Source: Akkermansiaceae bacterium (GTDB lineage: Bacteria; Verrucomicrobiota; Verrucomicrobiia; Verrucomicrobiales; Akkermansiaceae). Taken from it: a DNA stretch of 10,756 bases. The stretch covers positions 1-10,756 of the forward strand of contig JALZWJ010000332.1 of the NCBI GenBank assembly GCA_023300065.1, written 5' to 3'. Position 1 is the first letter of the stretch, and each line of letters starts with the position of its first letter. The notes beneath the pieces are model-generated. The model saw only the letters and a program-made list of their open reading frames with translations. It ran no database searches and was not told where the DNA came from. A program made the position numbers and the translations under genes. Shown here in pieces: positions 302 through 10,756 of this stretch.

Positions 302-1015
302 ATGAAAAAATTGATTTTTAGTAGCGCCGTAGTTTTGACGATGATCAGTACAAGCCACCTGGCCCATTCCGCGGTCCTTTCAATTTCTGATAATCTCATC
401 GTCACAGCTGATGGCACGGTCGGTTCGGCCGCTAACAGCGGTCTTCCTACCAATGGCGTGGCGTTTGACTATGCGGTTCGAGAGCGTCAAAATTCTAATC
501 AGACCGATCGCCGCGTTGTTTCTTTTCTGGGAGTCGATACGAGTAACTTGACCGTGGCCGAGGTGAATACTCCGGGGTTTCAAGCCACATTCACTGTCAA
601 TCACGTGGGGCAGCTAAATAGTGTCAATACGGGGCTAGATTTATCGCTAGGGCGGAACGTTTCTGGTGATTGGGATTCGATTTCTGATAGCGGTGATCCT
701 GATCCGCAGTTTGCGTGGGCTGCTGCTTCTGCAGATCAGTCCGTGATCCTTGCTGATATACATACTGTTGCCGATTCTCAGGCTCTCTCGCTTGATGTCA
801 CCTCGATTGTGCAGGGATGGGTCAATGGCACTTTTGCCAATCAAGGACTTATTTTATTAGGCACTCCAGCCGCTTCTAACGCTGGAAATAATAATCTTAG
901 CCAAGCTTCTTATCTCGCCGGAGCCGCGATTAACACCGCCATCGTCCCTGAGCCATCTGCGCTCATTCTCACGGGGTTCGGGTTGCTGGGTTTTCTAGCC
1001 GTCCGTCGGCGTTAG
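302..1015 (+). CDS. PEP-CTERM sorting domain protein with DNRLRE-like module
   Basis: This is an exported surface or matrix protein of 237 residues. A Sec signal peptide (Lys2-Lys3, hydrophobic 4-15, likely cleavage after AHS near residue 23) leads to a beta-rich domain of about residues 27-205. That domain holds RERQN (60-64), DRRVVSF (69-75) and an LDVTSIVQGWVNGT segment (164-177), which also occur in the next two proteins and match the general pattern of DNRLRE/CBM96-like modules. The C-terminus (215-237) is a classic PEP-CTERM signal: VPEP, a hydrophobic helix, then RRR. In known systems this signal is cleaved by an exosortase, and the protein goes to the envelope or extracellular matrix. 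No exosortase is visible here. The start is the only Met before the signal peptide and has no clear ribosome-binding site. It probably leads an operon with the two genes downstream. Carbohydrate binding is inferred from the module. Confidence 0.88.
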   Translation: MKKLIFSSAVVLTMISTSHLAHSAVLSISDNLIVTADGTVGSAANSGLPTNGVAFDYAVRERQNSNQTDRRVVSFLGVDTSNLTVAEVNTPGFQATFTVNHVGQLNSVNTGLDLSLGRNVSGDWDSISDSGDPDPQFAWAAASADQSVILADIHTVADSQALSLDVTSIVQGWVNGTFANQGLILLGTPAASNAGNNNLSQASYLAGAAINTAIVPEPSALILTGFGLLGFLAVRRR

Positions 1016-1046
1016 TGGAGAAATCATAAAGCCGCTTAATCTCCAC
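1015..1046 (+). promoter_or_regulatory. Inverted repeat just before the TSP3-protein start
   Basis: GTGGAGA (1015-1021) and TCTCCAC (1040-1046) can form a 7-bp stem with an 18-base loop. The 5' arm begins on the last base of the upstream stop codon and the 3' arm ends 5 bases before the next ATG. There is no T-run, so it is not a standard intrinsic terminator. It could modulate translation of the second gene or protect an mRNA end. No function is shown. Confidence 0.35.
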
Positions 1047-1051
1047 TTTCC

Positions 1052-3280
1052 ATGAATTTATTAAAAATCCCCCTCCTCTGTGTGCTGGGTTCTTTTGGGA
1101 TCGCCTCATTTTCAGTAAGTCTCCTCGGTCAAACTCTAACAATTCTGAGCCCTTCTGATACTGCGGTCACTGATAATCTTAATCCCGCGAATGCTGATGG
1201 CACTTCGGCCCTTGCGGGTGTCAATGCTGTTGTTACTGGCGATCTTGTCATTCGGGAACGTAGAAATCCGGATCAGAGTGATCGCCGGATCAGCTCTTTT
1301 ATTCAATTTGACCTGACAGAACCCGAGGCTGTAACTGCGCTTGCAGTGCCGCTTTTTACAGCGTCTCTGACTCTTGAATATGTCGGGCAGCTGAACACGA
1401 CAAATGCGGCGGGGGCTGCGCTTGGCAGGGTAACGGCGTCCGCCTGGGATAGCGTGACTGCGCTTCCGCTGCATTCTTATGGTCTAGATGCTGCTAATGA
1501 TATTACGTCTGCCGCAGATGTCATTCATTTCATTACGAACGTAGCAAACGAGGCTGCAACGGGGCAGACCTTAACGATTGATGTCACCAATATTGTGAGA
1601 GACTGGTTGGTCGGTGTTGAGCCGAATTACGGGTTCGTGCTTTTTTTTAATCAATTAGAGTCACAAGGAGCGGGTTTTGATAATCCCCAACTAGTCATCA
1701 CGATTCCAACTGATCGTGATAATGATGCGATTCCGGACGATTATGAAGTCGCGAATGGTTTGGACCCCAACGTGGATGATGCGGGCATCGATAACGATGC
1801 CGATGGCGGCCCAGACGGCTTGACTAATTTAGAGGAGTTTCGTGCCGGAACGGACCCGCAGGATAGCGATTCGGATGGCGATCAACTTCTGGATGGTGAG
1901 GAAGTCAACGGGACCCTCAATCCTTTTCAGGGGGATCAAGCCGGAGATGCGGCGACGGGAGCGCCTGGACTCACGACAAATCCCTTGATCGCGGATTCTG
2001 ACTCAGGTGGACTGAGTGATTTTGAGGAACTCGATGACGCTAATGGCTCGATGAGTAATCCTTTGACGAACGATACCGATGGAGACCAGTTACTAGATGC
2101 TTACGAGGTTGCCAACGGGCTGGACCCCGCAGATGCAACTGGAGATAACGGAGCGTTGGGCGATCCGGATAGTGATGGCCTGAGTAACTTGGAGGAGCAG
2201 GGACAGGGCACCAAGCCGGGGCTCGCGGACTCTGATGGAGACAGCTTGAACGATGATGTGGAGGTGGCCGGTCCTACCGATCCATCGAACCCTGATACGG
2301 ATGGAGATGGCATCGCTGATGATGTCGAAACTGCAGAAGCGAGCACCACGGATCCAATCATTCCTGATATGGATTTCGATGGTTTTTTAGACGGGGTAGA
2401 ATTGGCCGCTGGCTCAAACCCGAATGACTTTTCTTCCACCCCTGCGGTTGCGACCATTTCTTGGGCTGTTTCAGAACTGACCGGTGAAACCAATCTTATC
2501 ACCAGTGGGGCGCTACTTTTTGCGGAGAACTTTGGCGGACCAGCAGCAGTAGTGAATGGCATCCTTTTCGAAAATGCGGCGGATGTTGCGGGGACGAATG
2601 CGACCCGTAATACGATTACCTTGATTACGGGTGGAACGATGGATCAACCCACCTTCTACGATGATGAAGACCCACCACTTAGCGCTCTTTTGGAGAGCAG
2701 TTGGACCGTTGGGACTGACCCCAAGGTGGCGATCTTGGGCCTCACTCCGGGCCAATCCTACGTGATTCAGATTGGCCGTGCAGATGACCGTGATATCGGG
2801 ACGGTTGAGGGGCGATTTTATACGATCGACAGAGTAGGAGGCGAGGTCGGGGGGGATCCCGTGGGCGTCACAAACACGATCTTTGGCGGATCTGAAAATC
2901 CAGCGATTCTCTTTACCGGATCGTTCACGGCAAGCTCCACGGTGCAGAGCTTTGAGGTGAATCAATTCAATACGGGTGAAGATTCATTAGGAGGGGGAGC
3001 CACTGTTTTGAACTTCATGCAGGTTCGTGAAGCGGGAACGCGTGTTCTTCAAATCACGGAGGTTTCACGAAATCGAACTGACAATACGGTGTCTCTGACT
3101 TGGGACTCCACGGAGTCAGACATCTTTAGCGTATTTTACTCACTGGATATGATCAATTGGGAAGGAGGCCTAGAAAGCGGGATTCTTGGAGATGCGGGAA
3201 CCAGCACAAGCCGCACGTATGACCTGACTAACTTCGGGTTAGAGAATGAGGACAGAGTCTTCTTTCGTATTGAATATTAA
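1052..3280 (+). CDS. Large secreted TSP3-repeat protein with DNRLRE-like module
   Basis: This is a predicted exported adhesion or polysaccharide-binding protein of 742 residues. A signal peptide covers about residues 1-27. A DNRLRE/CBM96-like module follows (about 30-217), with IRERRN (67-72), DRRISSF (77-83) and a DVTNIVRDW segment (177-185). Residues 221-461 are about nine Asp-rich TSP3-type repeats (DxDxDG followed by LxxxxE), expected to bind calcium and form a rigid stalk. Residues 466-662 form a domain I cannot name, starting ISWAVSELTG. Residues 665-742 are a small beta-rich C-terminal domain ending FFRIEY, shared with the downstream sulfatase (FFRLEV). There is no PEP-CTERM tail, unlike its upstream neighbour. 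The ATG has no clear Shine-Dalgarno sequence and lies 36 bases after the previous gene. No catalytic motif is visible, so an enzymatic role is not claimed. A T8 run (1641-1648) and a G7 run (2849-2855) lie inside the gene. Confidence 0.85.
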   Translation: MNLLKIPLLCVLGSFGIASFSVSLLGQTLTILSPSDTAVTDNLNPANADGTSALAGVNAVVTGDLVIRERRNPDQSDRRISSFIQFDLTEPEAVTALAVPLFTASLTLEYVGQLNTTNAAGAALGRVTASAWDSVTALPLHSYGLDAANDITSAADVIHFITNVANEAATGQTLTIDVTNIVRDWLVGVEPNYGFVLFFNQLESQGAGFDNPQLVITIPTDRDNDAIPDDYEVANGLDPNVDDAGIDNDADGGPDGLTNLEEFRAGTDPQDSDSDGDQLLDGEEVNGTLNPFQGDQAGDAATGAPGLTTNPLIADSDSGGLSDFEELDDANGSMSNPLTNDTDGDQLLDAYEVANGLDPADATGDNGALGDPDSDGLSNLEEQGQGTKPGLADSDGDSLNDDVEVAGPTDPSNPDTDGDGIADDVETAEASTTDPIIPDMDFDGFLDGVELAAGSNPNDFSSTPAVATISWAVSELTGETNLITSGALLFAENFGGPAAVVNGILFENAADVAGTNATRNTITLITGGTMDQPTFYDDEDPPLSALLESSWTVGTDPKVAILGLTPGQSYVIQIGRADDRDIGTVEGRFYTIDRVGGEVGGDPVGVTNTIFGGSENPAILFTGSFTASSTVQSFEVNQFNTGEDSLGGGATVLNFMQVREAGTRVLQITEVSRNRTDNTVSLTWDSTESDIFSVFYSLDMINWEGGLESGILGDAGTSTSRTYDLTNFGLENEDRVFFRIEY
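1712..2434 (+). repeat. TSP3 repeat tract in the 742-residue protein
   Basis: This part of the gene encodes residues 221-461, about nine degenerate calcium-binding units such as DSDSDGDQLLDGEEVNG, NDTDGDQLLDAYEVANG and PDTDGDGIADDVE. The units vary in length (about 20-25 residues) and are not near-identical in DNA, so this is a protein-level repeat and not a DNA satellite. Confidence 0.85.
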
Positions 3281-3318
3281 CCTGCCGAACTTTCACTTCT
3301 TTTGCTTCGTTTCAAAAA

Positions 3319-6300
3319 ATGCACTTTTCCCCTAAATCACCTCGTTTCCCAATCACTCTGGTGACGTCCTTGTCTCTGCTCGGGGCGTCTCTTTTAGTAA
3401 CCTCTGCCGCATTCATCAATCCGGCGAGCGAAGTCATCATTAACGCCACTTTCAATAATACCGTAGATGGCTTGCGTGAGGATTTTAATCTCATTTCAAA
3501 TTCTATCGGAAACCCTTCTTGGAATAACGCCACAGGGCAAGCTGCGATGTCTATTGACGAGGCCTCTAATGGAGCGGTCGGCTGTGTTAGTGGGAGTTCT
3601 TTTAATGGCGCGCTCTTTTCAACCATCACGGCGTCCATCACTATCACGAGCATCACTGATCCCGATGGGCAGCCCACGAACAACGGCCACTGGGCTGGAC
3701 TGACTGGAAATAATACGGAGATTTGGAACAACTCTGAACTCGCCGGAGGGGCTGATGGCTGGGCTTTGGGGATTCGTTTTATCGGAGGCGCGGTCAATTT
3801 TGTGTACGACAATGCAGCTGGAAATGAGGTCATTATAGCCTCTCTTGGAACTTACACTCTGAGCAGCCTACAAGACGGCTACACCGTCGATTACCGTTTT
3901 AATAGGGACGGCTGGCAGGTCTGCCTGACTGGTCTCACGGGTTCTGTGGATGCGGATGGAGTTTGGCCTGCGGGTTTCGATTACTCGACTCTGACAAATG
4001 ATGATTCCCTGTTTGCCTCCATGGTGTATCAGCAGGTGAATGAGGCCGATAGCGTCATTGAGGTCGCTTCCATTTTTGTGAACGGTGACTCTGCGACCAC
4101 GGCTAGTAATCTGAACCCAAGCACGGTCTTCACGACCGATGCCCAAAGCGCAGCAGTCACCGGCGCGACCTCTGTGAATAGTGGTGACTCGACGAGCGCC
4201 TCGTCCATCTACATCCGTGAAAGACGAAACTCGACTGAACTCGACCGTCGAGTCAGCTCCTTTTTGAATTTCGATGTCAGTTCGTTGACGGCGACAGAAG
4301 TCAGCACTCCCGGATTTTCGGTTTTTTTCACGGCGGACTACAATTTTCAACTGAACGATCTGAACAGCACCGCCGCCGTTGTGGGGCGCGTGACCAATGG
4401 AGCGTGGAATGCCACCACCATTTTTCCTCTCCACACTTGGGGGATCGATGACGCGGCAGACCGCTCAGCTCTGATCGTGGACATTTCAGCTCTCAGCCCT
4501 CCTTCATCAGTCTCGTCAGATGTCACCGACATTGTAGCGGGGTGGGTGAATGGGACGTTCGATAACTACGGGCTCGCGGTATTTCTCGGTAACCTTGAAT
4601 CGAATGCCGCGGGCTTTCTGAATCCCCGACTCGTGATTACAAGCGTCCTTGATTCCGATAACGATGGGCTATCTGACAATTATGAGTTGGCAAATGGTCT
4701 CGATCCAAATGTCGATGATGCAGACCTCGATAATGATTCGTCTGGAGGTGCTGATGGCCTGACTCATTTGCAAGAATTCATCGCGGGGACTGATCCGCAG
4801 GACAGCGATAGTGATGATGATGGTCTTCTCGATGGCCAAGAGGTCAATGGCACGCTCAACCCTTGGGTCGCGGGCGTGCAGTCCGGTGCTCCGGGGGACC
4901 CCACCGATCCACTCGAAGCGGATTCCGATGGTGATGGGAGTGATGATCATTCAGAAATTCTCGCGGGAACGGATCCTAATGCACGGCCGCCCGACACCGG
5001 CCCCCTCATCGCTTTCATCGATAGCGATGGGGACAGCTACCGCGATGAGGCAGAAGTTGCCTTTGGTTCTCTCCCGAATGATGCGGCCGATATCCCCGAC
5101 CATCGACCGCCCGCGGCGAGGCCAAACGTGGTCATCATTTATGCCGATGATCTGGGATTTGGTGACATCTCCGCTTATGGGGAGTTATTTGGCACCACCA
5201 GCTCTGCGCCCACGCCAAATATTGACGAACTCGCTGCGCAAGGGGTGATGTTTACTCAGGGCCACTCCGCAAATGGAGTGTGCACTCCCAGCCGCTACTC
5301 ACTGCTCACCGGTAAATACAATTTTAGAGAGTTTGATAATATCACGAATAACTATGGCGGCACGATTGGCGGCGATGAACTCCCGCGGGTCTCTGATGTC
5401 ACCATCGCGGAGTTCCTCAAAACCCAGCAATACGACACCGCTGCAATCGGGAAGTGGCACCTAGGCGGCGCTTTCTATCGAAGAGATGGAACGCGCATCT
5501 CCGATAACCCGGAGGATGGAGCAGAGGTCGATTGGGCGCGGCCCGTTGAACTGCATGCCACCGATCACGGATTTGACCAATATCGCGGCAATGCCGTGGC
5601 GATCAACTTCGCGCCCTACGTCTACATGATCGATGACCGCATGCAATTTTGGGACACCTCGCTCAATGGCGGGGCAGGGGGGTATCGGGATGCTCTCAAT
5701 ACCGACCCGTTCCGCTGGTTCACCACGGCTGAGCTTAACTCGACGGTGGTGGGGGCAAAGGGCTCACGCGCTGGTCTCGGCGATCCTTCCTACGAGCAGG
5801 TCGATCTTGGCCCACAGCTGGTGAACGATGCTGAAGCCTACTTCGCAGACCGCGCCACGAGCGGAGATGCCGATCCTTTCTTTGTTTACCTGCCCCTGCA
5901 TTCACCACACCGGCCTTGGGCACTGACCCCACCTTTTATCGGTGAGGATACGAACCGAGGCTTTATTTTTGCGGATTGGATGCGCGAGGTCGATGACCGC
6001 GTGGGCCGCATTCTTGCAGCCATCGATAATAACGGCTTCGGTGCTAATACCATGGTCGTCTTCACCTCAGATAATGGACCTGAGAGTGACATGCTGCGTG
6101 AGAGCATCCTCTTCGGGAGTGACGCCAATGGACCCTTGCGAGGCCATAAACGAGAGACCTATGACGGCGGCACCCGCGTCCCCTTCATGGTCCGCTGGCC
6201 CGGCCAAGCAGCGGCTGGCCTGAAAGTCACTGACCCCATCTGGCAGGGCGATATCTTCGCCTCCATCGCCGCCTATCTCGGCGTGGATCTCCCCGATTCC

Positions 6301-7098
6301 ACCGCACCCGATGGTGAGAGTTTCCTGAATCTCATCCGTGGCCAAGCAAAGCCCTCGGTCCAGCGTGAAGCGATCGTGCTCAGCGGGCAACGAGGCGACT
6401 TAGCTCTTAAAACCCCCGACGGATGGAAGTTCATCGATTCCACCGGAGGAAGTTCGGATAGATCTTGGAAGACTGATAATATCGAGTTCTTCGGCGCTGC
6501 CGGAATCGATCAAGGCAGCCCAAAACAACTCTTCGAGCAGAATATTGACCTCGGAGAAAATACCAATCTCATCGAGAACCTGACCGATGATACCGCGATC
6601 CGGAGCGAGCTGACCGCACTCACGGGCCGTGACCTCCTGGGTCTTCTCGACAATCTCCGCACCACTGAATCGACGAGCCTTTTCCCACGGGTTCCAGATA
6701 ACGATGGCGATACCCTGCCGAATGCTTACGAGCTCGCCAATGGTCTTGACCCCGATTGGCCGCTGGATGCCAGGGGCGATCTAGATGGTGACGGAGCCAG
6801 TAATCTGGATGAGTTCATCTCTGGTACCGATCCAACCGACCGTAATGATGTATTGCGCATCAGTAGCTTTAGCCGGCAAAGTGGTTCTGTGGTTGTCAGC
6901 TGGCCCAGCATTAGCGGGCGCACTTACCAGGTCACATGGTCCACTGATCTCATCAACTGGTCTGTCGTCGGGAGCATCTCCGGCACCGGGACAGAGGTGG
7001 ACTTGGTTGTCGATCTTGGGCCGATCGACCGCGTGGATGGAGTCGAGGGGAACTTAGACCGCCTATTTTTTAGATTGGAAGTCGCTGCTCCCGAGTAG
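3319..7098 (+). CDS. Multidomain secreted sulfatase with DNRLRE-like module and TSP3 repeats
   Basis: This is a predicted extracellular type I (formylglycine-dependent) sulfatase of 1259 residues, far longer than the roughly 450-600 usual for the family. In order: signal peptide (about 1-31); a beta-rich domain possibly of the concanavalin/LamG type (about 36-258); a DNRLRE-like module (about 265-440, with IRERRN and DRRVSSF); TSP3 repeats (445-593); the sulfatase domain (about 601-1110); a second TSP3 piece (1127-1175); and a C-terminal beta-rich domain (1178-1259). The catalytic set looks complete: metal ligands Asp610-Asp611 and Asp918-Asn919, the formylglycine signature CTPSR (655-659) with Cys655 as the modified residue, GKWH (Lys712, His714), HSPH (861-864) and Lys944. 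It needs a formylglycine-generating enzyme encoded elsewhere. The likely substrate is a sulfated polysaccharide; which one cannot be told. It is 38 bases after the TSP3 protein, probably in the same operon, and its ATG has only a pyrimidine-rich leader upstream. Confidence 0.92.
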   Translation: MHFSPKSPRFPITLVTSLSLLGASLLVTSAAFINPASEVIINATFNNTVDGLREDFNLISNSIGNPSWNNATGQAAMSIDEASNGAVGCVSGSSFNGALFSTITASITITSITDPDGQPTNNGHWAGLTGNNTEIWNNSELAGGADGWALGIRFIGGAVNFVYDNAAGNEVIIASLGTYTLSSLQDGYTVDYRFNRDGWQVCLTGLTGSVDADGVWPAGFDYSTLTNDDSLFASMVYQQVNEADSVIEVASIFVNGDSATTASNLNPSTVFTTDAQSAAVTGATSVNSGDSTSASSIYIRERRNSTELDRRVSSFLNFDVSSLTATEVSTPGFSVFFTADYNFQLNDLNSTAAVVGRVTNGAWNATTIFPLHTWGIDDAADRSALIVDISALSPPSSVSSDVTDIVAGWVNGTFDNYGLAVFLGNLESNAAGFLNPRLVITSVLDSDNDGLSDNYELANGLDPNVDDADLDNDSSGGADGLTHLQEFIAGTDPQDSDSDDDGLLDGQEVNGTLNPWVAGVQSGAPGDPTDPLEADSDGDGSDDHSEILAGTDPNARPPDTGPLIAFIDSDGDSYRDEAEVAFGSLPNDAADIPDHRPPAARPNVVIIYADDLGFGDISAYGELFGTTSSAPTPNIDELAAQGVMFTQGHSANGVCTPSRYSLLTGKYNFREFDNITNNYGGTIGGDELPRVSDVTIAEFLKTQQYDTAAIGKWHLGGAFYRRDGTRISDNPEDGAEVDWARPVELHATDHGFDQYRGNAVAINFAPYVYMIDDRMQFWDTSLNGGAGGYRDALNTDPFRWFTTAELNSTVVGAKGSRAGLGDPSYEQVDLGPQLVNDAEAYFADRATSGDADPFFVYLPLHSPHRPWALTPPFIGEDTNRGFIFADWMREVDDRVGRILAAIDNNGFGANTMVVFTSDNGPESDMLRESILFGSDANGPLRGHKRETYDGGTRVPFMVRWPGQAAAGLKVTDPIWQGDIFASIAAYLGVDLPDSTAPDGESFLNLIRGQAKPSVQREAIVLSGQRGDLALKTPDGWKFIDSTGGSSDRSWKTDNIEFFGAAGIDQGSPKQLFEQNIDLGENTNLIENLTDDTAIRSELTALTGRDLLGLLDNLRTTESTSLFPRVPDNDGDTLPNAYELANGLDPDWPLDARGDLDGDGASNLDEFISGTDPTDRNDVLRISSFSRQSGSVVVSWPSISGRTYQVTWSTDLINWSVVGSISGTGTEVDLVVDLGPIDRVDGVEGNLDRLFFRLEVAAPE
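4651..5097 (+). repeat. First TSP3 repeat tract in the sulfatase
   Basis: It encodes residues 445-593, including DSDNDGLSDNYELANG and DSDSDDDGLLDGQEVNG. Residues 461-515 match residues 237-291 of the preceding protein at 44 of 55 positions (hand count, no gaps), pointing to duplication of a shared segment. A second short tract (residues 1127-1175) follows the sulfatase domain. Confidence 0.85.
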
Positions 7099-7176: not shown

Positions 7177-7770
7177 ATGGCATCGACTTTTCAAACCCGT
7201 CACTCTCTTCTTCAACGGGCAACCGACTTGAAAGACGAAAGCGCATGGGTGGAGGTGGTGGAGCAATATCGCCATTTTATTTTCTGTGTTCTGAATCAGC
7301 TCGGAGTTTCGCGTGATGATTTGGAAGATCTTTCCCAACAGATCCTCATCGGCCTGACCAAAAGCCTGCCTCGGTATGATCGTAAGAAGGCGAAGTTTCG
7401 CTATTGGCTGAGCGCCATCATTCGGAATAAAGCTAATAGCTATTTCCGGAAGCAATATAGCGCCAAGAAATCTCTGGACCAGATGTCGAATCACGCACGC
7501 GAAAATCACGAGATTACCGCCCCGGAGATCGAAAATGTCATCGAAAGAGAGTGGGCCGCCTATATCGGGAGCCAGGCGATGTGCCGGACAAGAGAGGCTT
7601 TTAGTGGACAGGCTATGGAGGTTTTTGAACTTGGGTTAGATGGACATTGCGCTGCTGATATTGCCGCGAAGACGCAGCTGACGATTGCTACGGTTTATAC
7701 TTTAAAAAAACGGGTCAAGAAGCGCCTGTATCTTGAGATCCGAAAACTCTCTGCCGAGCTAGAGGGATGA
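7177..7770 (+). CDS. ECF-type RNA polymerase sigma factor
   Basis: This is a sigma-70 family factor of 197 residues that would direct RNA polymerase to a specific promoter set. Region 2 lies at about 32-92: DDLEDLSQQI (47-56) corresponds to the core-binding region 2.2, and YDRKKAKFRYWLSAIIRNKA (67-86) covers regions 2.3-2.4, which melt and read the -10 element. Region 4 lies at about 145-190 with a helix-turn-helix (AADIAAKTQLTIATVYTLKK, 159-178) for the -35 element. The layout fits the Verrucomicrobia/Planctomycetes ECF-like factors. No anti-sigma gene is adjacent; instead the stop codon overlaps the start of a membrane kinase, so control by phosphorylation is likely by analogy with kinase-linked ECF groups. 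Region 2.2 has Ser53 and Gln55 where ECF factors usually have V/T and an acidic residue. The ATG follows a pyrimidine-rich leader without a clear Shine-Dalgarno sequence, 78 bases after the sulfatase gene. Confidence 0.88.
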   Translation: MASTFQTRHSLLQRATDLKDESAWVEVVEQYRHFIFCVLNQLGVSRDDLEDLSQQILIGLTKSLPRYDRKKAKFRYWLSAIIRNKANSYFRKQYSAKKSLDQMSNHARENHEITAPEIENVIEREWAAYIGSQAMCRTREAFSGQAMEVFELGLDGHCAADIAAKTQLTIATVYTLKKRVKKRLYLEIRKLSAELEG

Positions 7771-9806
7771 GCCGCTCCACCAAAAATCCTCAAGATGATG
7801 ACGCGTATCAGAACGATTATCGTTTGATCCAAGCTTACCAAGAAGCGACTAATCTCGACGAAGAAGGCTTCGAGGCTTTGTGTCCTTCTTACATTGAGCT
7901 CTCCGAAACCTCGACCCGCTATCAAGATGAAACCTTAATCGGAAAAGGCGGCGTCAAGGAGGTCTGCCGGACCTTTGATAACCACACGCGGAGATGGCTT
8001 GCGATGGCGCGCCTCCGCCCAGACCACGGCCCCGAGTTTTATGATCTCTTTGTCCATGAGGCATGGCTCACTTCCTCGCTAAATCATCCCAATATTATTA
8101 GTGTCCATGATGTCGGGATCGACCCCTCCGGGCACCCATTTTTCACGATGGACCTCAAGGGAGACACCACGCTTGATAGCTTCATCAAAGGCAGCCAGCG
8201 AGAACTGCACGACCTCCTGCGCGATTTCCTGAAAATCTGCGATGCTGTTTCCTACGCTCATTCGAAGAATATCCTCCACCTCGACCTCAAGCCCGAAAAC
8301 ATCCAGACTGATGCCTTCGGAGAAGTCCTGGTCTGTGACTGGGGGCTTGGGAAAATCATTTCTGATCCTGAGGGAGATTCCCCCGATTCCCCCTCCCACG
8401 ATCTGCTCGATAACATGACTCTCGTCGGCCAAATTAAGGGAACACCCGGTTACATGGCCCCCGAGCAGATTGCAAAAGACATAGCCAAGGATCCCCGCAC
8501 GGATGTCTTCTCCCTCGGTTGTATCTTGCACGCTATTCTCACCGATGAACCACCGTTCCGGGGTGATCATGAAGCTCGGCTGGCCGCTACCTCTGAAGGC
8601 AACGTCGCAGACCCATGTCAAAAATTTCCCTCTCGCAAAATCCCACTCGGCCTCGGTGCCGTTACCTTGAAGGCTTTGACGAAAGATCCCAGTGGGCGCT
8701 ACCAGTCGGTCTCCGAGCTGAAAAAAGATGTTCTACGATACATGGAAGGATTTTCGCCCAAGGCGGAAGAGACCCACTTCCTACGCGAGGCCTTTCTCTT
8801 CGCTTCTCGGAATCGGATTCCCGTTTTTGTCGCCTTCTTTTCAATGATTCTCCTCAGCGTCTTAAGCACTCTCTTTGTTCAAAGACTCGACTTCCTTCAG
8901 CAATCCGTGCGCGAAGAATCTCACCTAGCCGATCACTACGCAACCGCAGCCGATGCCGCCAACCAGCGGCATCTTGACGCCCTCTCAAAATCACAGGAAG
9001 AGCAACGTGCTCTTTCCCAGTCTTTAATGTCGTCAGTTAAAAATCTGAAAAGCAAAGGGGTTTTTGACACCCCGATGAAAAGCATCCGCGAGGCCGTGGT
9101 GCTGGCAGAGCACTCGCTCGCGCTTAACCCCGATTCAGAGGCTGCAAAATTTCAACTCTTTGCCCTCAATTCGATTCAACTAAATTTCAAAGGTGCGCTG
9201 GAGTTCCCACTACCGGAGGGACATGCGCGCCACGGATACATGTCCTTTGCTCAAGCTTTTCCAGAATTTGACTATCATCGGGAAAAAAGGCCCTCGCTGG
9301 AAGCCCTCTGTGATTTCTTAGAGGAAGCACGCACGCTAGACCCAAACCATCGCCCGATTATTGAACGGATGATTTCCTACGATGCCGCAGTCCGCCCTTC
9401 AAAAAAGTCCTATCACCAAGTGGTTCTAGAACTCATAAATTATCTCAACCCCAGTCATGAAAATATCGAACTGAAACCGGGGTTAGAAGAGTCGGAGCTC
9501 ACTTTACGCTCTCTCAATCGTCCTCGATTGATCGTCAATCGAGGTGGATCCGAACAATGTGTGCTGCGGTATCTGAACGTTCGCAATCTCACCTTAGAAA
9601 GCCCGTCCGTGCTCGACCTCGCGCAACTCAATGGCCTAACCATTCAGAAACTCGACCTCACAGGTTGTGCCCGCTTCCGTCTTAAACAGCCCCTGAGCCT
9701 TCCCGCTCTGGATACCATCATCATTAAATCAGGCCACCACTCGATTGAAGAACTGCGAACTTGGATCCGCAGTTCGGGGGATTTTGAAATCATCGAAGCT
9801 TCCTAA
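7767..9806 (+). CDS. Transmembrane Ser/Thr kinase with relocated (WNK-like) lysine
   Basis: This is a Hanks-type kinase of 679 residues. The cytoplasmic kinase domain (about 53-330) has the glycine loop IGKGGVKEV (58-66), alpha-C Glu98, HLDLKPEN (171-178, catalytic Asp173), DWG (191-193), an extended Ser/Asp-rich activation segment, GTPGYMAPEQ (225-234) and DVFSLGCIL (246-254). The beta-3 Lys position is Ala81 (LAMARL), while Lys64 sits in the glycine loop, as in WNK kinases. The HRD Arg is Leu172, making it a non-RD kinase. One membrane helix (about 351-371) is followed by a coiled-coil-like stretch (372-430), a TPR-like stretch (436-480) and a leucine-rich-repeat-like end (about 577-668, with LDLAQLNGLTIQKLDLTG). 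The latter parts should be periplasmic and probably sense a signal or bind a partner. The ATGA overlap with the sigma gene implies translational coupling, and the sigma factor is the obvious candidate substrate. Activity is likely but unproven because of the unusual ATP site. Confidence 0.88.
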   Translation: MSRSTKNPQDDDAYQNDYRLIQAYQEATNLDEEGFEALCPSYIELSETSTRYQDETLIGKGGVKEVCRTFDNHTRRWLAMARLRPDHGPEFYDLFVHEAWLTSSLNHPNIISVHDVGIDPSGHPFFTMDLKGDTTLDSFIKGSQRELHDLLRDFLKICDAVSYAHSKNILHLDLKPENIQTDAFGEVLVCDWGLGKIISDPEGDSPDSPSHDLLDNMTLVGQIKGTPGYMAPEQIAKDIAKDPRTDVFSLGCILHAILTDEPPFRGDHEARLAATSEGNVADPCQKFPSRKIPLGLGAVTLKALTKDPSGRYQSVSELKKDVLRYMEGFSPKAEETHFLREAFLFASRNRIPVFVAFFSMILLSVLSTLFVQRLDFLQQSVREESHLADHYATAADAANQRHLDALSKSQEEQRALSQSLMSSVKNLKSKGVFDTPMKSIREAVVLAEHSLALNPDSEAAKFQLFALNSIQLNFKGALEFPLPEGHARHGYMSFAQAFPEFDYHREKRPSLEALCDFLEEARTLDPNHRPIIERMISYDAAVRPSKKSYHQVVLELINYLNPSHENIELKPGLEESELTLRSLNRPRLIVNRGGSEQCVLRYLNVRNLTLESPSVLDLAQLNGLTIQKLDLTGCARFRLKQPLSLPALDTIIIKSGHHSIEELRTWIRSSGDFEIIEAS

Positions 9807-9849: not shown

Positions 9850-10756
9850 ATGAAGCATTCACGTCGTCATCTCCTGAAAGGAAGTCTTATTGGGGGCGCC
9901 ACCGCGGCGCTTGCCACGATTTCGCCGGCCCGCGCGCAGTCGGCTCCCGATGCACAAGCAAGTAGCCCGCCGAAGAAGCCACGAGGTATCATCTTCATGG
10001 TCTCCGATGGAATGAGCCAGGGGGTGCTCTCGATGACGGAGGCATTTTCCACTCAAGTGCGCGGGAAGGGGACTCGGTGGTGGGAGTTGCTCTCGAACTC
10101 TAAAGCGACCCTAGGCCTCATGGATACCGCATCCTCAAATTCCATGGTTACGGATTCTGCCGCTGCGTCCTCGGCTTGGAGCTCTGGGAAGCGAATTCCG
10201 AATGGTCAAATTAACGTCGATGACAAGGGGAAGAGGTTGGAGTCGATTGGTGAGACGCTGGAGAAGAACCGCGTGCGGCTTGGCTTAGTCTCGACCGCGA
10301 GCATTACGCACGCGACTCCCGCAGGTTTCGCCGCCTCGGTAGTGAAACGGGGGCAGGAGGATCTCATCGCGCCGCAGTATCTGAATCGGGTCGATGTCAT
10401 TCTGGGTGGAGGGTCAAAGTTTTTTGATCCGAAGGTGAGGAAGGATAAAAAAGACCTTTTTACGAGTTTTGCGAAGGAGGATTATGACGTGGTCGGGACG
10501 CGAGACGAGCTCTTGAAGTCGAAGTCCAAGAAGATCCTAGGGACCTTTTCGTCCGGACACATGCCTTACACCATTGATCGGAATCAGAATGCCAAGATGC
10601 AGATGAAGGTCCCGACCTTGGCGGAAATGTCAGAGGCCGCGGCGGCTCGCTTTCTGGATGGCGATGAACCTTTCCTCCTCCAGATCGAGGGAGCGCGGAT
10701 TGATCACGCCGCGCACAAGAATGACATCGGCGCGATCTTGCGCGAGCAAATGGCCT
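9850..10756 (+). CDS. Tat-exported alkaline phosphatase, PhoA family (3' end cut by window)
   Basis: A metal-dependent phosphomonoesterase that frees phosphate from organic compounds outside the cytoplasm. The first 302 codons are present with no stop; the frame runs off the window. The N-terminus SRRHLLK (4-10), a hydrophobic stretch and ARA (27-29) form a twin-arginine signal, so export is as a folded protein. PhoA landmarks are Asp53 in MVSDGMS (metal), TDSAAAS (101-107) with nucleophile Ser103 and metal-binding Asp102, THATPAGF (153-160), GGGSKFF, and EGARIDHAAH (280-289) with Glu280, Asp285 and His289 at the same spacing as E. coli Glu322, Asp327 and His331. His154 and His286 take the places of E. 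coli Asp153 and Lys328, as in animal alkaline phosphatases. The gene begins 43 bases after the kinase gene. A PhoB-type site is not evident. Family is certain; the exact substrate is not. Confidence 0.93.
   Translation, partial: MKHSRRHLLKGSLIGGATAALATISPARAQSAPDAQASSPPKKPRGIIFMVSDGMSQGVLSMTEAFSTQVRGKGTRWWELLSNSKATLGLMDTASSNSMVTDSAAASSAWSSGKRIPNGQINVDDKGKRLESIGETLEKNRVRLGLVSTASITHATPAGFAASVVKRGQEDLIAPQYLNRVDVILGGGSKFFDPKVRKDKKDLFTSFAKEDYDVVGTRDELLKSKSKKILGTFSSGHMPYTIDRNQNAKMQMKVPTLAEMSEAAAARFLDGDEPFLLQIEGARIDHAAHKNDIGAILREQMA

Follow-up and report, generated by a model that had tools for sequence, protein, structure and literature searches.

The question raised by this locus is whether a bacterial membrane kinase that has Ala at the position of the beta-3 lysine may still anchor ATP, with a lysine moved to another part of the active site. 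The window analysed is the whole 10,756-nucleotide stretch of contig JALZWJ010000332.1 from an Akkermansiaceae bacterium, and the kinase gene, like the genes upstream of it described below, lies on its forward strand. The gene at 7767..9806 (stop codon included) encodes a receptor-type Ser/Thr kinase of 679 aa, and its open reading frame reads ...TLIGKGGVKEVCRTFDNHTRRWLAMARLRP.... The kinase domain (residues about 50-335) scores 113.9 bits with the Pkinase profile PF00069, above the curated cut-off of 31.7, and has the bilobal kinase fold. It is followed by a transmembrane helix, residues about 353-371 (8823..8879; Kyte-Doolittle 19-residue maximum of 2.54 at 353), and by a predicted extracytoplasmic tail, residues 400-679 (8964..9803), with one helical half that resembles TPRs and a short beta half that resembles LRRs. 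The TPR-like and LRR-like assignments are weak partial matches, and a Foldseek search with the tail fold returned nothing at E < 0.001. In structural comparisons of the kinase domain, ERK2 chains rank on top by Foldseek E-value and PknB by a second structural aligner; neither ranking has a WNK chain in its top 50 rows, an absence that is uninformative on similarity.

The initial annotation had proposed a WNK-like layout of the active site, with Lys64 in the nucleotide loop, Ala81 at the beta-3 position and 17 residues between them, and the alignments bear this out. Three printed alignments of the window kinase with solved PknB chains are ungapped between loop and beta-3, and they place Lys64 at the third glycine position of GxGxxG and Ala81 at the lysine position of VAVK. 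The alignment with WNK1 (PDB chain 5w7t), likewise ungapped between the two sites, puts the WNK1 Lys on the Lys64 column and its Cys on the Ala81 column, and the spacing of 17 residues is the same as that from Lys233 to Cys250 of WNK1. In the window, the glycine-rich loop GKGGVKEV (residues 59-66) is found at 7941..7964; the relocated lysine, Lys64, is the first residue of beta-2 (codon AAG, 7956..7958), and Ala81 is encoded by GCG at 8007..8009. The alpha-C glutamate, Glu98 (8058..8060), the catalytic loop HLDLKPEN (residues 171-178, 8277..8300), in which HLD replaces HRD, and the metal-binding motif DWG (residues 191-193, 8337..8345) follow downstream. Thus the window kinase differs from PknB-type Hanks kinases in the third loop glycine, now Lys, in the beta-3 lysine, now Ala81, in the loss of the HRD arginine, and in the lack of any PASTA match in the profile search, and agrees with them in the alpha-C Glu (Glu98), the catalytic Asp and Asn (Asp173, Asn178) and the metal-binding Asp (Asp191).

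Conservation of the layout was assessed in three sets of matches. A protein search with the window kinase was taken to the best 120 of 3081 significant matches, the window's own protein included; all 119 homologues that cover the loop have Lys and Ala, and the one other, P0039, is without the N-lobe. A genome scan, taken to the best 80 of 584 confirmed loci and aligned with the paralogues from the genome of the window, contained 97 rows that include an N-lobe: 46 with Lys/Ala (window locus included), one with Lys/Gly (L039), 48 canonical, and two alignment slips (L061 and L067). A second protein search, seeded with L046, a kinase with HLD, DWG and the canonical lysine, gave in the best 120 of 4331 matches the WD40-tailed kinases of the L046 type and 86 further Lys/Ala rows with HLD. 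The pooled set of 357 rows consists of 252 loop-lysine domains, 89 canonical domains and 16 rows set aside (13 without both columns, and L061, L067 and P0130); it includes few duplicates, with 246 distinct family strings and 88 distinct canonical strings.

The 341 classified kinase domains fall into two classes. In the 252 loop-lysine domains, referred to here as the family, the beta-3 residue is Ala in 251 cases and Gly in one, L039 being the single member found with Gly; the other 89 are canonical, and none of the 341 has both lysines. The co-variation of the two positions is therefore complete in this sample. Reduction to less than 70% identity leaves 106 family and 75 canonical domains, with Lys64 in 106/106 and Ala81 in 105/106 (one Gly) of the former, and Lys at position 81 in 75/75 of the latter. 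The spacing from Lys64 to position 81 is 17 residues in all but one of the 252 family domains, the exception having 18. Over 47 loci, the window included, Lys64 is encoded by AAA in 25 and AAG in 22; the codon varies while the residue stays, and thus it is the lysine itself that persists. The two positions switch reciprocally in the sample, and the layout has been conserved for long. It may have arisen once, so that the co-variation would represent one long-kept event and not many independent events. A hydrophobic segment C-terminal to the kinase domain (a Kyte-Doolittle 19-residue stretch of at least 1.6) is present in all 205 family proteins tested.

Forms that have both lysines or neither would be transitional between the two layouts. 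A third search was seeded with P0197, which has HRD, DWG and the canonical lysine, and its best 120 of 7996 matches contained 115 new proteins, giving 141 rows, 20 of them without an N-lobe. Among the remaining 121 rows, 119 have the beta-3 Lys without a loop Lys, and two have VALK offset by one alignment column. No transitional form was found among the best 120 matches each of the HLD-canonical-seeded and HRD-outgroup-seeded searches. Five apparent exceptions (L061, L067, P0130, P0248 and P0258) were rejected after reading by eye, since the beta-3 Lys is present and offset by one alignment column; P0130 is also without a nucleotide loop.

The nearest canonical relatives of the family are bacterial kinases with the unusual HLD motif. 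WD40-tailed kinases such as P0121, P0122 and their relatives share HLD and DWG with the family, but keep the canonical GxGxxG loop and the beta-3 Lys. When the 106 non-redundant family domains were compared with 23 canonical domains that have HLD (22 of them distinct), a set from which two tandem-kinase proteins were excluded, columns 64 and 81 were the sole fixed-for-fixed swaps. Column 177 comes next, nearly disjoint yet variable (E/D/S/A in the family, H/N/Q in the HLD canonical domains). HLD kinases with the canonical beta-3 lysine and WD40-type Pfam matches are P0121-P0129, P0131-P0137, P0140-P0142, P0144, P0146, P0148 and L046; L046 and P0121 are one protein. Two tandem kinase domains per protein were seen in P0138, P0139, P0143, P0145, P0147, P0154 and P0164, with the beta-3 lysine present, and some of these tandem-domain kinases carry HLD, HCD or HQD motifs.

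Which residue of the family would take the place of the missing lysine was considered from strand geometry and conservation. In the predicted model beta-2 spans residues 64-71 and beta-3 residues 76-83. Lys64 lies two residues before Val66 of beta-2 and Ala81 two residues after Ala79 of beta-3, so that the side chains of both should face the nucleotide cleft, and that of Arg82 (CGC, 8010..8012) should point away. Arg82, adjacent to Ala81, had been put forward as the other candidate, which would amount to a Lys-to-Arg type change with a shift of one residue. Arg is found at this position in 107 of the 119 close homologues (best 120 of 3081) and in 119/252 of all family domains, but among the 106 non-redundant members it is found in only 36, the others having V, I, T, E or L, in contrast to Lys64 in 106/106. 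Arg82 as the anchor is thus rejected on conservation, and with the predicted strand parity also against it, this substitution can be given practically no credence.

The remaining catalytic residues are conserved throughout the family. Lys64, Glu98, Asp173, Asn178 and Asp191 are invariant in 252/252 family domains, and Lys175 is retained in 249/252. Thus constraint remains on the whole catalytic set. Trp192 of DWG is found in 106/106 non-redundant members; L103, which retains the loop Lys, the beta-3 Ala and HLD, has DFG in place of DWG. Position 172, the Arg of HRD, is Leu in 245 family domains, Phe in 6 and Arg in 1, and in this one loop-lysine domain HRD was kept or regained. With the HRD Arg lost in 251/252, the family members would be non-RD kinases, and control through the activation loop must differ. 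In the inactive structure of WNK1 the alpha-C Glu bonds to the HRD Arg (Kannan 2007, PMC1821047); where HLD replaces HRD this Glu-Arg contact is impossible.

Loss of the beta-3 Lys alone is a usual criterion for a pseudokinase (PMC12599244), and by sequence the window kinase has lost this Lys, has kept both Asp, and has a lysine at a possibly compensating place. It should therefore be considered that ATP is bound via Lys64 with no phosphotransfer, and that the protein acts as a nucleotide-dependent conformational switch or as a scaffold for an ECF sigma factor. Both the beta-3 lysine and the HRD arginine are gone, and several bacterial families without the beta-3 Lys have been classed as pseudokinases (PMC12599244). 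However, a non-catalytic switch would hardly need Asp173, Asn178, Asp191 and Glu98 in every family domain together with Lys175 in nearly all, and we regard a pseudokinase as rather unlikely, if a real possibility. The strand parity of Lys64 and Ala81, together with the invariant Glu98, Asp173, Asn178 and Asp191, favours an active enzyme, as the initial annotation had preferred. The reading that we hold to be quite probable is that of an active single-pass membrane Ser/Thr kinase whose ATP-anchoring lysine has moved to the loop as Lys64, and which is probably separate from the WNKs.

Lys233 of WNK1 is considered to enter the nucleotide cleft from the loop, to bind the alpha and beta phosphates, and to pair with the alpha-C Glu. 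For the window kinase we infer the side-chain geometry, the catalysis, the signal and the substrate. The ATP-anchoring lysine would have left beta-3, where Ala81 now stands, for the loop end at the start of beta-2, and the side chain of Lys64 would enter the cleft and make the contacts proposed for Lys233, with the alpha and beta phosphates and with Glu98. The family shares with WNK1 the Lys at the third glycine position, the missing beta-3 Lys, the 17-residue spacing and the retained alpha-C Glu, but differs in that its members are bacterial membrane receptors with Ala where WNK1 has Cys, and with HLD and DWG where WNK1 has HRD and DLG.

The relationship to WNKs and to the HLD kinases was addressed with trees, all of them quick searches with long branches. 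The first tree has 101 rows, three eukaryotic kinases and 98 bacterial, with the trait columns 64, 81 and 172 removed. The family lies on one side of a branch with a weak SH-aLRT of 59; family and WD40-type HLD canonical rows come together (96), P0197 with its HRD is next outside (96), the HLD rows P0138 and P0143 are placed elsewhere, and the three eukaryotic kinases are apart (95). On this tree the layout needs one change within bacteria. A second tree was built from a global alignment of five eukaryotic kinases with 40 bacterial rows from the earlier 98. Here the HLD canonical kinases are nested inside the family, although a monophyletic family is not rejected (p 0.452). The layout takes three changes in total on this tree, and the family and its HLD relatives form a joint clade (93). 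The change from HRD to HLD probably preceded the move of the lysine. As the monophyly of the family is weakly supported, with a value of 59 in the one tree and HLD rows nested in the other, the WD40-type HLD group may have gone back to the canonical layout.

Descent of the family and the eukaryotic WNKs from one ancestor, with transfer one way or the other, would account for the identical two positions and spacing, and the larger tree with three eukaryotic rows failed to reject a grouping of the family with WNK1 (AU test, p 0.463). However, in the tree that has five eukaryotic kinases WNK1 clusters with the eukaryotic ones (97), and the AU test rejects a clade of WNK1 with the family alone (p 0.0027) as well as one of WNK1 with the family and its HLD relatives (p 0.003). 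The differing motifs, HLD, DWG and the beta-3 Ala as against HRD, DLG and Cys, also speak against common descent, which we consider very improbable. Rejection was obtained with five eukaryotic kinases and not with three, and convergence with WNK rather than shared origin is likely. The layout would then have a bacterial origin among HLD/DWG kinases, probably separate from that in the eukaryotic WNKs.

The resemblance to WNK1 had also raised the question whether such kinases sense ions, for which no support was found. It has been proposed that WNK1 can bind a halide because Lys233 sits at an unusual place (PMC4718504), and on this ground the emptied beta-3 site could accommodate an anion or a small ligand, in the manner of the chloride-sensing WNKs. 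The window kinase has V113, F126, W192 and L194 at the equivalents of WNK1 F283, L299, L369 and L371, which we take to be the chloride-pocket positions; three of the four differ, and only L371 is matched. V, F and W at the equivalents of F283, L299 and L369 are also the commonest residues in the canonical relatives, and a ligand pocket of this kind is quite improbable for the window kinase. Slightly less so, and still a long shot, is the wider proposal of an independent bacterial WNK-type active site in hundreds of receptor kinases, with the vacated beta-3 site as an allosteric anion or metabolite pocket. If true, lysine-less kinases would have evolved ion or osmotic sensing on two occasions.

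Kinases without the usual lysine have been described in other groups. WNK is the only functional ePK family without it according to Kannan 2007 (PMC1821047). The CAK-chloro proteins, of the choline/aminoglycoside kinase group, show the same shift of a positive charge, to position 55 from position 72, where Met is found, but the shifted residue is Arg and not Lys, and the alpha-C Glu is replaced by Phe (Kannan 2007, PMC1821047). The bacterial pseudokinase families ActPs2, DYD, DLHK and GLW also lack the beta-3 lysine; their beta-3 position is taken by Arg or a bulky residue, or they have arginines at other sites, and no relocation of a lysine to the loop is described for them in the available portion of the source (PMC12599244). 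In the open literature searched, as far as its accessible text extends, no bacterial Hanks kinases with a loop lysine are reported as a family; that literature does not include a 2025 atlas of bacterial kinases (42 families; summary in PMC12599244).

An ECF-type sigma-70 factor gene (7177..7770; Sigma70_r2 50.6 bits, TIGR02937 53.1 bits) lies directly upstream of the kinase gene, and the two genes share 4 nt (ATGA), where the stop of the one meets the start of the other. An ECF gene is directly upstream in 18/47 family loci (2 others at a contig edge) and in 6/48 canonical-kinase loci (4 at a contig edge), counts in which distant ECFs may be missed, since the ECF model had the factor of the window as its seed. 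A signal is probably sensed by the extracytoplasmic tail and relayed by the kinase, and in the subgroup of the window the target of the relay is probably the translationally coupled ECF sigma factor. An ECF sigma factor gene also adjoins a Ser/Thr kinase gene in the EcfP-PknT pair of ECF43, but EcfP has STTA in region 2.2, with the DAED motif missing (PMC8999054), and the window factor has an acidic region 2.2, DDLEDLSQ (by eye). Thus the window ECF does not belong with ECF43-like factors, defined by the missing DAED, and misfits their phospho-activation model. Further upstream (302-7098, all on the forward strand) are genes for a PEP-CTERM protein, a protein with TSP3 repeats and a sulfatase of 1259 aa that has a TSP3 match; downstream, a gene for a TAT-signal alkaline phosphatase (9850-10755) adjoins the kinase gene and runs off the contig end.

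Family records are named Verrucomicrobiota, Lentisphaerota and Kiritimatiellota, with Planctomycetota found rarely in the sample (L024, P0041), and in this sense the conjecture that the arrangement is general in the phylum held. Of 288 genomes drawn from the phylum, 211 match a family profile at E <= 1e-40, canonical kinases included, and 76 have a match at E < 1e-90 (hand count, own genome included). The best locus in each of 30 genomes (E <= 6.4e-113), the window among them, is Lys/Ala in 30/30. Full-protein matches at E <= 1e-60 are present in 10 of 38 near genomes, own included, and the gene is thus patchy. Three genomes (G194, G211 and G235) each have more than 100 first-pass candidates, and all 8 that were scored matched, which suggests large kinase expansions.

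A survey of Planctomycetota counted kinases as functional only with the K-D-D triad (PMC11032199), and surveys of this type would miss loop-lysine kinases. It looks as if the same lysine trick evolved twice, in this bacterial family and in the WNKs of animals and plants. The family and its canonical relatives with the HLD motif form a natural pair, testable by two substitutions. A large bacterial family with a WNK-type move would also serve as an independent test of which features are consequences of the lysine shift, such as halide binding, regulation and drug selectivity, and which are specific to WNKs.
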